A stretch of DNA of 64,000 bases, taken from positions 68,356-132,355 of the forward strand of contig JAUJNT010000002.1 in assembly GCA_030448005.1 (NCBI GenBank), written 5' to 3'. Numbering within the stretch: position 1 is the stretch's first letter; each line of letters starts with the position of its first letter. The DNA is from Thermoleophilaceae bacterium (lineage in GTDB: Bacteria; Actinomycetota; Thermoleophilia; Solirubrobacterales; Thermoleophilaceae). The notes under the pieces were generated by a model. That model was not told where the DNA came from. It made no database searches and saw only the letters and a list, made by a program, of their open reading frames with translations. Below are positions 2,679 through 7,764 of this stretch, one piece after another. The position numbers and the translations under genes are program-made.

Positions 2679-3731
2679 ATGGTGGACTGGACCCTGGCGC
2701 GTCAGATCGCTCGCTTCGCGGCGCGCTCCGACGACGTGCCCGCCCTAGGCCTCGACCTCCCCGCACTCGCGCGGGAGATCGAGCCGGACGTAATCGCCCA
2801 TGCCAGGCTCCAGCCCGCCGGGGCGGCGCCGAGTGCCGAGGTGGTCGGCAGGGGCGCCTGGGCCGAGGCCAACCTCTCCTCGCTCTCCACGCTGCTCGAG
2901 CCGGTCACCGGGCGCCTCGAGGACAGGCTGGCACGCGCGGGCCCGTTCGCCGGAGCGCTGCACCTCGGCACAGGGGTCGCGCTTGCCGCCGAGGTGGGCC
3001 TCGTCGTCGGGTACATGTCCCAGCGGGTGCTCGGCCAGTACGAGCTCGCGCTGCTGGCGCCGGACACCCCGCCGCGGCTGCTCTTCGTGGCCACCAACCT
3101 AGAGCGCGCAGTCGCCGAGCTCGACGTGGATCAGGACAGCTTCCTGCGCTGGGTCGTCATCCACGAGCTCACCCACGCTCTCCAGTTCGGGAGTATTCCG
3201 TGGCTGCGCGGCCATCTCGGCGGCCTGCTGCGTGACTACCTGGAGACCGTGGACGTGCGCATCGAGCGCGGAGCCACGGGAGGGCTTCCCTCTCTGCCCG
3301 ACCTCACGGATCTTGTCGAGCGCTTCCGCGAAGGTGGTCTGGCCGCCCTCGTCCAGACCGGGGAGCAGCGCGCCATCGTGGAGCGGATGCAGGCGGCGAT
3401 GGCGCTGATCGAGGGCCATGCCGAGCACGTGATGGACGCCCTCGCCCCCCACCTCGTGCCGGAGCACGAGGGCCTGCGTGAGGCGATGTCGCGGCGTCGG
3501 GCCAGCCGGTCGGCTCCGGAGCGGATCCTCGGACGCCTCCTCGGTATGGACATGAAGCTGCGTCAGTACGAGCTCGGCAAGTCCTTCTGCGACGCCGTGG
3601 TCGCCGAAGGCGGCATCGAGGCGCTCAACCGGGCCTGGGCGGCGCCCCACGCGCTGCCGACGCTCGAGGAGATCGAGCAGCCGGTCATGTGGCTGGGTCG
3701 CACCGAGGCGCCCGCCGCGCCCGTTCCCTGA
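2679..3731 (+). CDS. Zinc-dependent metalloprotease, DUF2342 / F420-biosynthesis-associated (zincin_2)
   Basis: 350 residues. Belongs to the actinobacterial DUF2342 family often annotated as coenzyme F420 biosynthesis-associated. The zincin motif is HELTH (H162, E163, H166), followed by ALQF and a long helical C-terminal half with DPLAPH-type residues and LGMDMKLRQYE. No signal peptide or transmembrane segment is visible, so it is probably cytoplasmic. It lies 27 bp after the LigD-type gene and could be part of the same transcript, but TAGCTT at 2663-2668, ten bases before the ATG, could also be its own -10 box. The link to F420 is a family annotation; nothing around it here makes F420. Confidence 0.85.
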   Translation: MVDWTLARQIARFAARSDDVPALGLDLPALAREIEPDVIAHARLQPAGAAPSAEVVGRGAWAEANLSSLSTLLEPVTGRLEDRLARAGPFAGALHLGTGVALAAEVGLVVGYMSQRVLGQYELALLAPDTPPRLLFVATNLERAVAELDVDQDSFLRWVVIHELTHALQFGSIPWLRGHLGGLLRDYLETVDVRIERGATGGLPSLPDLTDLVERFREGGLAALVQTGEQRAIVERMQAAMALIEGHAEHVMDALAPHLVPEHEGLREAMSRRRASRSAPERILGRLLGMDMKLRQYELGKSFCDAVVAEGGIEALNRAWAAPHALPTLEEIEQPVMWLGRTEAPAAPVP

Positions 3732-4734: not shown

Positions 4735-5282
4735 GCCGTCCGCTTCCGATACTAGCCCCGGCAGCACAATTTTGCCTCGGCTGGCTAGTCGCTGTGGCGC
4801 TTCTGCTTGTTGCGACGCATACCGCATTTTCCTCCTTCGCGTACCGACGACGTACCGCCTTCGGTAACGCGGGATCTCTCGCCCTCCTTGAGACTTCCGC
4901 AGTGGGCAACTCTTGAAACTCCGTATCTCGCTGTCGGCCCTTCCGGTGCATGGCTCCTGGCCTCAGCTTCCTTTCTTCGTCTGAGCCCCATGCCATACTC
5001 CGGACTGGGTGTAGTTCCGTTTCCGGCTTCGGGGTCTGCAGACTTCGACAAAGGGCTCGCTCGGGTTTGGCGACCTGAGCGGGCCATTTTGCCATTCTGC
5101 TCCGAAGTCCGGACCGATTCGCCGCTTTCAAGCGGTTTGCGGGCCTTTTCCGTACGACTTGCCTCGCAAAACGCGGGGTCTTTGTCGGCGCGGCGCAGAA
5201 GAACGAGTACGACCCTCGCGCAGACCCGCTCTCGATGTGTTCTCACGTCATACCCCCCTTGAAGGGATACTTGCCATCGAGG
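4735..5282. other. Low-GC gap without a convincing gene
   Basis: Visibly poorer in G+C than the flanks. Open frames exist on both strands (4807-5262 plus; 4785-5339 and 4718-5131 minus), but none shows a recognisable domain, a good ribosome-binding site or third-position GC bias. It sits between an IS remnant and a promoter, so it is most simply imported or decayed DNA. Confidence 0.5.
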
Positions 5283-5310
5283 TTTACAAACGTGTGTTCG
5301 CTGGTATAGT
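5283..5310 (+). promoter_or_regulatory. Sigma-70-type promoter with embedded LexA-like box
   Basis: TTTACA (5283-5288), a 16-bp spacer and TATAGT (5305-5310) make one of the best promoter matches in the window. Between them, CAAACGTGTGTTCG (5287-5300) reads on the other strand as CGAAC-N4-GTTTG, one base from the core of the actinobacterial SOS box CGAAC-N4-GTTCG. A repressor bound there would cover the space between -35 and -10. The next gene is the H1-like protein at 5373, preceded by GGGAAGGAG. SOS control is inference. Confidence 0.5.
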
Positions 5311-5372
5311 CCTACTGAACTTAGAACTAATAGGATCAACTACCTCCGGCAAACGCCGGGAAGGAGCGACAC

Positions 5373-6035
5373 ATGGCCACCCAGACGCCCACAGACCGCA
5401 AGGCCGCCGCCAAGAAGGCCGCCGAGACCCGCCGGCGCAACCAGCGCAGCGCCACCGCCAAGAAGGCGGCAGCCACGCGCAAGCGCAACACCACGGCAGC
5501 GCAGCGCAGCGCGCGCGGCAAGCAGTCCGCCGCCACGCGCAAGGGCAATGAGGCCTCTCGCGGCGCCCAGACCACCCAGGCTCAAGCCAAGCGCACCGCG
5601 ACCAGCGGGCTGCGCACGGTGCAGGCAGGCGCCGAGGCCGGGAAGTACACCCTCGATGTCGTCGCCACCCAGGCTCAGCGCGCCGCGCTCATCCCGGTGG
5701 GCGCCGCCCTCAGCGCGCGTGACAGCGTGGTCGACGCGGTCAAGCCCTACACCAGCCGCGACAAGGCCGAGAAGGAGCTCTCCCGGCTGCGCCGCGACAT
5801 GAGCCGCGACCTCACCAGGTTCGAGCGTCGTGGGACCACGGCTCGCAACCGGGTACAGCGGGAGGTCAAGCGCACCCGCACGCGCGTCGAGCGAGAGCTG
5901 CGCCAGCGTCGCACGCAGGCCGAGCGCGTCGTGAAGCGCAACCGCCGCGACATCGAGAAGCAGGTCAACGGCGTGCAGTCGGGCGCCGAGGGCCTGGCCA
6001 AGCGAGTCCAAGAGCGGGTGGCGAGCTTGGCGTAG
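5373..6035 (+). CDS. Lys/Arg/Ala-rich histone H1-like / HBHA-like protein
   Basis: 220 residues. Residues 1-60 are made of repeated AAKKAAxTRK(R)N-type units, like histone H1 tails and the basic tails of mycobacterial HupB/HBHA. Residues about 75-120 are less basic, with a short hydrophobic stretch (ALIPVGAALSARDSVVDAV). The rest is a long charged coiled-coil helix (RLRRDMSRDLTRFERR, then VKRTRTRVEREL and on). No signal peptide is seen. Binding to DNA or another polyanion is inferred from composition alone. The start is well supported by GGGAAGGAG seven bases before the ATG. Its promoter carries a LexA-like box, which would fit a role in chromatin after DNA damage. Confidence 0.7.
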   Translation: MATQTPTDRKAAAKKAAETRRRNQRSATAKKAAATRKRNTTAAQRSARGKQSAATRKGNEASRGAQTTQAQAKRTATSGLRTVQAGAEAGKYTLDVVATQAQRAALIPVGAALSARDSVVDAVKPYTSRDKAEKELSRLRRDMSRDLTRFERRGTTARNRVQREVKRTRTRVERELRQRRTQAERVVKRNRRDIEKQVNGVQSGAEGLAKRVQERVASLA

Positions 6036-6272: not shown

Positions 6273-7474
6273 ATGCCCACGGAGGAACAGATCAGGGACG
6301 CTCTCACGAACGTCATCGATCCCGAGCTGCGCAAGAACATCGTGGAGCTGGGGATGGTTCGCGCGATCGAGCGCCGCGAGGGACGAGCGCGTCCACGTCA
6401 CCGTCTCCCTGACCACGGCCGGCTGTCCGATCCGCTCCCACTTCCAGACCGCGGTGTCGGACAACGTGATGGCGCTCGGCGGTGTCTCCGCCGTGAGCGT
6501 CGACTTCGACGTGCTCTCCGACGGCGAGAAGAAGTCCCTCCAGCAGCGCCTGGGCCGGGGCGGGCTGCCCCAGGGCGCCCTCGCGCGGGTCAAGAACGTG
6601 ATCTGCGTCGGCTCCGGCAAGGGGGGGTCGGCAAGTCCACGGTGACCGCGAACCTGGCGACGGCGCTTCAGCTCGAGGGCATGCAGACCTCCGTCATGGA
6701 CGCCGACGTGTGGGGCTACTCCATTCCGCGCATGCTCGGGGTGCACGGGCGCCCGATGGTCAACGGCGAGCGCAAGATCATTCCTCTTGACGCTCCGGCG
6801 GGCGTCAAGGCCATCTCGATCGAGTTCTTCCTCGAACAGGAGGACCAGGCCATCACCTGGCGCGGTCCGATGCTCCACAAGGCCATCCGCCAGTTCCTCG
6901 AGGACGTGGACTGGGGGTGAGCTCGACTACCTGCTCATCGACCTCCCGCCGGGCACCGGCGACGTGTCGATGACCCTTGCCCAGCTGCCGCAGGCGCGCT
7001 TCGTGATCGTGACCACCCCGCAGCCGGCGGCGCAGAAGGTGGCCAAGCGCGCCGCCGACACCGCGCTGCGCTACGACCTCGAGATCGCCGGCGTGGTCGA
7101 GAACATGTCCGGCTTCACCACTCCCTCCGGCGAGCGCTTCACGATCTTCGGCGAGGGCGGAGGCCAGGCGCTGGCCGACGAGCTCGACGTGCCGTTGCTC
7201 GGCAAGGTGCCGCTCCAGGAGGAGCTTCGCCTGGGAGCCGACGAGGGCCTGCCACTGGTGCTGACCGACCCGGACGCGCCCGCGGCCCAGGCGCTCTTCC
7301 ATGCCGCCCGCGGCCTGATCGCGGCCACCCCGCAGGAGCTGCCGACGATGCAGGAGCCCTCTGGCCCGCCGCTACCCAAGATCACCGGCACCGAGCTGCC
7401 GATGGCCGCCGGTCGAGCCATCAAGCTCGGCGCAGGATCCGCCCGACGACGAGCAGGCCAGACCGGCCGCCTAG
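6273..7474 (+). pseudogene. Mrp/NBP35-type P-loop Fe-S carrier ATPase, broken by several frameshifts
   Basis: Joining frames gives a normal Mrp of about 400 residues: a DUF59/MIP18-like N-terminus (DALTNVIDPELRKNIVELGMV), SLTTAGCPIRSHF, the deviant Walker A GKGGVGKST, DADVWGYSIPRMLG, LLIDLPPGTGD and ENMSGF. In Mrp proteins this ATPase loads Fe-S clusters onto client proteins. The reading frame breaks at about 6380; at the G-run 6621-6627 (seven G where eight are needed, inside Walker A); at the G-run 6913-6917 (five where four are needed); and at about 7431, before an ending DDEQARPAA and TAG at 7472. All are single-base changes in otherwise intact sequence, so sequencing or assembly error is as likely as true decay. 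Convergent with ferredoxin. Confidence 0.85.
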
Positions 7475-7497
7475 GCCGAGCCGGCGGCCGCGGCTGC

Positions 7498-7764
7498 TCA
7501 GGCCTGGTTCTTGAAGTACTCCACGTTGATCTCGGTGAACTTGGTCCACTCCTCGGGGAGCTGGTCCTCGGCGAAGCAGGCATCCACGGGGCATGCCTCC
7601 ACGCAGGCATCGCAGTCGATGCACTCCTCGGGGTCGATGTAGAGCTGCTCGACCTTGTCGTAGTCGGGCTCGTCCGGCGTGGGATGGATGCAGTCGACCG
7701 GGCAGACCTCGACGCACGAGTTGTCCTTCTGGCCGATGCAGGGCTCTGCGATGACGTAAGCCAA
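7498..7764 (-). CDS. fdxA: Ferredoxin with two clusters (7Fe/8Fe FdxA type)
   Basis: 88 residues starting with TTG. The start is set by the family N-terminus AYVIAEPCIG; the open frame extends upstream but that part is not ferredoxin-like, and GAGGA lies about 11 bases before the TTG. Cysteines C9, C17, C21 and C25 (CPVDC) form the first set. C48, C51, C54 and C58 (CIDCDACVEACP) form the second. This is the arrangement of actinobacterial seven-iron ferredoxins that carry electrons for P450s and other oxidoreductases in the cytoplasm. It ends 24 bp from the mrp stop, tail to tail. Confidence 0.9.
   Translation of the reverse strand: MAYVIAEPCIGQKDNSCVEVCPVDCIHPTPDEPDYDKVEQLYIDPEECIDCDACVEACPVDACFAEDQLPEEWTKFTEINVEYFKNQA

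Follow-up and report, generated by a model that had tools for sequence, protein, structure and literature searches.

The window analysed here, a 64,000-nucleotide stretch of the genome of a Thermoleophilaceae bacterium (order Solirubrobacterales; assembly GCA_030448005.1, contig JAUJNT010000002.1, positions 68,356 to 132,355), contains at 5373-6035 on the plus strand an open reading frame (ORF) for a 220-residue basic protein with an isoelectric point (pI) of 11.8, preceded by a promoter into which a candidate operator for the SOS repressor LexA is set. The ORF was defined from the ORF list, its homologs, an alignment and a structural model; judged from the sequences, it is a real gene, since a protein search over 232 genomes of the order found matches in 186 of them. 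An initial annotation described the product as histone-H1-like, and we keep H1-like as a label for the gene.

The promoter consists of a -35 hexamer, TTTACA (5283-5288, plus strand), and a -10 hexamer, TATAGT (5305-5310, plus strand) with an extended TG before it; the window letters from 5280 to 5320 are AGGTTTACAAACGTGTGTTCGCTGGTATAGTCCTACTGAAC. This pairing, already named in the initial annotation, was recovered by a promoter scan, in which TTTACA-16-TATAGT was the sole consensus-like match between 4000 and 7000 (0.1 expected from shuffles). Most ortholog promoters keep the -35 as (G)TTTA[CA] and, by eye, the -10 as TAnnnT. The putative LexA box is read directly from the sequence as CGAACACACGTTTG at 5287-5300 on the minus strand (CAAACGTGTGTTCG on the plus strand) and scores 14.5 bits with the matrix described below, and mononucleotide shuffles of the whole window contain a mean of 0.1 such sites. 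The box had been placed between the two hexamers. Its sequence and strand are as proposed, but its first two bases (5287-5288) are shared with the -35 hexamer; its other end lies 4 bp ahead of the -10. No Rfam match was found in the leader (5200-5420) up to an E-value of 1. Two other types of control were considered and dropped. A sigma-B/F type promoter (GGTTTA and GGTAT) seemed conceivable by eye; most -10 elements of the orthologs fit TAnnnT, however, and we retained the SigA-type reading. PafBC-type control, which is independent of LexA and has the motif TTGTC plus TAnnnT, does not fit by eye.

Conservation supports the box as an operator. We took 80 ortholog loci by protein score, ignoring the promoter; these are the highest scorers among the 186 matches, omitting G000 itself, two genomes in which the contig begins at or inside the gene (G210 and G209) and the lower-scoring remainder. 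A box with at most one mismatch is present at the promoter in 70 of the 80. A strict composite of promoter and box was found at 62 loci; the controls gave 2 of 80 for the opposite strand and 0 of 80 both downstream and farther upstream. When 200-bp upstream stretches were scored with a matrix trained on lexA boxes alone, 60 of the 80 reached the threshold of 12 bits, as did 11 of 1899 control windows taken elsewhere in these loci; the count of 60 is too low, because the script set the wrong start for L091, L115, L120 and L122, where boxes were found by other means. Promoters anchored on the box mostly follow the pattern GGTTTA-CRWAC-NNNY-GTTCG-(N)-GGTA, in which the core varies and the half-sites are largely constant. 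Among 399 genomes of the class, 34 contain the exact composite GTTTACAAAC-N4-GTTCG, as a single copy in each and always at this gene (32 placed by the coordinates of the protein match, and two, in G031 and G045, by reading a diverged ORF overlooked in the protein search), and the composite is absent from the 223 genomes of the class, among those 399, that lie outside the order. Candidate orthologs outside the order, weak profile matches in 4 of 34 genomes (E 3e-5 to 1e-3), were not accepted, and a search of the contig collection returned a single homolog, L019.

The box also persists where the surroundings of the gene differ. At 13 loci neither of the usual neighbours, a zincin-like metallopeptidase gene and an mrp-like gene, is nearby; four of these belong to genus g29, which has no box, and the other nine carry one or two boxes, indicating that the box travels with the gene and not with its neighbourhood. 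Double boxes are found in many genomes, either as a tandem spaced by about 17 bp (genus g25 and neighbouring members of family f2) or with the second box 43 or 109 bp upstream (family f4). Eight loci in a different neighbourhood (L091, L107, L108, L115, L117, L120, L121 and L131) have two LexA-type boxes about 15-18 bp apart, the second adjoining the -10. On this comparative reading, the element at 5287-5300 is a LexA-type operator fused to the promoter and kept by selection.

The repressor and its other sites can be sought in the same genome, which comprises 3.23 Mb in 9 contigs and has one lexA locus (C5:28681-29276), which matched in two pieces that lie in different frames; roughly 50 bp upstream of it is a CGAAC-N4-GTTCG box. 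The pattern CGAAC-N4-GTTYG occurs at 16 distinct places in this genome; the reversed control pattern, counted per strand, gives 9 matches. Besides the box of the H1-like gene itself, seven of these places lie just before or at the start of an ORF, and eight have no clear promoter context. The seven ORFs encode LexA, UvrA, DinB (with an IMS domain), a second IMS-domain protein of the Y polymerase family, a PHP-domain DnaE2-like protein, a radical-SAM protein and a helix-turn-helix protein; the gene for the last (L010:767-1507, minus strand) starts at a CGAACACACGTTCG box and may be another SOS target. This genome has just one other TTAGAWSTAAYA site, at about position 1500 of L051 and some 140 bp before an ORF that by eye resembles a DUF892/YciE-type protein. 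Across the order and this genome we collected 31 lexA loci, of which 30 could be read (at L134 the motif search missed the gene); every readable promoter has a box, which matches CGAAC-N4-GTTCG exactly in 26 cases and deviates at one position in 4. The box in the window closely fits both the Streptomyces venezuelae LexA motif, tCGAAC-N4-GNNCGa (PMC9380542), and the Gram-positive consensus CGAACRNRYGTTYC (PMC2248561). The LexA-like operator that the initial annotation saw at this gene is thus backed by a boxed lexA in the same genome, by the uniform lexA promoters and by the orthologs.

The protein itself has two parts, an N-terminal tail rich in Lys, Ala, Thr and Arg (approximately residues 1-92), and a conserved helical core that contains PVGAAL..RD, FERRG.TARNR and ERELRQRR motifs. 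In an alignment of 50 proteins (that of the window and 49 relatives) the core residues G110, L113, E151, R153, G154, R169 and R174 are invariant and the length of the tail varies. All 72 orthologs measured have a pI of at least 9.75 (median 11.7) and a tail rich in Ala/Thr/Ser and Lys/Arg, with a median net charge of about +25, and the protein of the window carries +35. KAAATR-like motifs recur. AlphaFold2 predicts two long helices, 6-121 (the second half at low confidence) and 129-219, with a pTM of 0.34. Pfam and NCBIfam profiles assign the protein of the window to no family, H1 and Hc included, and a sequence search of solved structures gave weak matches only (E 0.015 or worse). Taking composition and the predicted structure together, we put the chance that the product is a nucleoid protein at about even.

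These observations suggest a model in which the gene at 5373-6035 belongs to the SOS regulon of this actinobacterial order. A LexA dimer on 5287-5300 would occupy the spacer together with the end of the -35 and thereby exclude RNA polymerase; after DNA damage, RecA-dependent self-cleavage of LexA would free the promoter. The product could then bind DNA through its basic tail and self-associate through its helical core, most likely coating, compacting or bridging DNA during repair. From the promoter sequences, control of the gene by LexA is very probable, and the explanation as a whole, in which a LexA-controlled gene yields a basic product that coats DNA after damage, we regard as likely.

Several observations weigh against this model. 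At ten of the 80 ortholog loci no sequence comes within one mismatch of the box (L056, L069 and L077, together with L065, L066 and L068 of genus g16 and L097, L099, L109 and L111 of genus g29), and lexA is present in most of the tested genomes to which they belong. In g16 and g29 the SOS box has been lost at the H1-like gene; the g29 lexA promoters that were read retain theirs. Of 53 genomes tested, 48 gave a lexA match, and four of the remaining five (G064, G151, G202 and G203) still carry the box at the H1-like gene, perhaps because the assemblies are incomplete. The lexA of the window's own genome is itself split over two frames. The protein has no recognised DNA-binding domain, its best weak profile matches being coiled-coil and lipid-binding families such as apolipoprotein, and a Foldseek search of the PDB with the predicted structure gave no match. 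As to the split lexA, an mrp-like gene of the same genome (6273-7560 in the window) is likewise broken across several frames, and both splits are probably assembly indels; a genuine break in lexA, if real, would leave the SOS response permanently on.

The most serious competing explanation accepts control by LexA and has the product, a basic coiled coil of the HbhA or phasin type, act at the cell envelope, at lipid inclusions or in a division checkpoint instead of on DNA. HbhA is a basic coiled-coil protein of this kind, and division inhibitors are common in SOS regulons. The two long predicted helices suit such a role, as do weak profile matches to apolipoprotein (14 of 50 members), apolipophorin (7 of 50) and phasin (1 of 50). 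However, the protein of the window scores far below the listed family cut-off (19 versus 90 bits), and matches of this sort are typical of coiled coils; the net charge and the Lys/Arg-rich tail are better suited to DNA or RNA, and no signal or membrane segment was noticed in the protein, although no predictor aimed at them was used. We consider this alternative unlikely, with perhaps a quarter of the weight.

A second explanation, that a repressor other than LexA, with a GAAC-N4-GTTC type of site, uses the conserved dyad as its operator, draws on the left half-site, which is usually CAAAC at this gene and CGAAC in lexA promoters. However, the A at position 2 of the half-site coincides with the last base of the -35 hexamer TTTACA, and where G stands there the half-site becomes CGAAC or CGTAC. 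The site is moreover detected by a matrix built from lexA boxes alone, and tandem and fully palindromic boxes stand at the gene in other genomes, so that we hold a different repressor to be improbable. That the box is a chance match without function is vanishingly improbable: several of the 16 places in the genome lack a clear promoter context, but place, spacing and half-sites are kept in the boxed orthologs, also in differing neighbourhoods, and conservation among relatives excludes chance as the explanation.

Beyond the LexA-type box, the promoter has a second conserved element, CTTAGAACTAATAG, at 5320-5333 on the plus strand, near the expected transcription start, with the consensus [CG]TTAG-N2-[CG]TAA-YA-N2-CTTA. 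Within one mismatch, [CG]TTAG-N2-[CG]TAA is found just below the -10 at 56 of 80 loci, mostly with CTTA after it; the test is loose, and at least L090 and L091 look like chance matches. Of the 232 genomes of the order, 14 contain the longer 18-base form, TTAG-N2-STAA-YA-NC-CTTA, one copy in each, and all 14 copies lie at the H1-like gene (in G211 by ORF reading). A single site per genome suggests a gene-specific or autoregulatory operator. The element is retained in g16 and, in altered form, in g29, both of which are without the SOS box. An RNA hairpin was considered and rejected, since the inner pair (position 4 against 7) is by eye often broken, with G against G, and a DNA site seems likelier. 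A second operator at the transcription start could provide feedback or a second stress input. The broader proposal, an order-wide SOS-induced chromatin protein under direct LexA command with a second, gene-specific operator kept where SOS control has been lost, is tentative, and we would put it somewhat short of even.

Upstream of the H1-like gene, and all on the plus strand, lie genes that profile searches identify as ku (840-1745), a ligD primase-polymerase domain gene (1746-2651) and a PF10103 zincin-like metallopeptidase gene (2679-3731). An IS1595-type transposase ORF (PF12762, 3732-4307) directly follows the zincin gene, and ORFs like it also precede the orthologs L057 and L061, which may mark a repeated insertion site. 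Downstream, at 6273-7560 on the plus strand (the end is approximate), is the gene in several frames noted above, which we recognise by its sequence as probably mrp/ApbC-like. Among relatives the zincin is the commoner upstream neighbour, found at 47 of the 68 loci whose upstream sequence is 2.2 kb or longer, and mrp is the commonest downstream one, at 64 of the 74 loci with 2 kb or more on that side. The initial annotation had seen meaning in the proximity of the Ku/LigD genes. This link is not supported: ku or ligD is upstream at only 7 of those 68 loci, which makes the Ku/LigD neighbourhood a local arrangement of near relatives, and around ku the window contains no box even with one mismatch allowed. 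Nor do ku and the H1-like gene have a promoter or operator in common, the H1-like gene having its own promoter.

SOS regulons usually consist of polymerases, recombinases and division inhibitors. If the model is true, a histone-like protein is under direct LexA control across several families of deep-branching Actinobacteria, programmed SOS remodelling of the nucleoid becomes testable, and a protein family without a curated profile gains its first function. In the literature on LexA and SOS in Thermoleophilia and Actinobacteria and on damage-induced nucleoid or H1-like proteins, the gene is undescribed as far as titles and the openings of abstracts tell. By term counts in the main texts of PMC9380542 and PMC8151990, the words histone and nucleoid are absent.

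With the known actinobacterial LexA/SOS systems of Streptomyces and Mycobacterium, the system described here shares the type of box, the autoregulation of lexA and the presence of polymerase and excision-repair targets in the same genome; it differs in that the target gene comes from a family with no curated profile match. The chlamydial proteins Hc1 and Hc2 have a similarly Lys/Ala-rich, strongly basic tail. The HC2 profile, however, is matched weakly by only 1 of 50 members (E 0.009 in Pfam, 0.0037 in NCBIfam), and the family of the H1-like gene has an added conserved helical core and appears to be controlled by damage. In Deinococcus, DdrC is a damage-induced DNA-compacting protein, and the proposed logic would be the same, a clade-specific DNA-coating protein turned on by damage. 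The Deinococcus regulon, that of DdrO/IrrE (PMC8533742), has a different repressor. In Escherichia coli, RecN drives supercompaction of DNA, according to PMC12462666; SOS-linked compaction would be common to both systems, but RecN is SMC-like, in contrast to the small, basic and helical protein encoded in the window.
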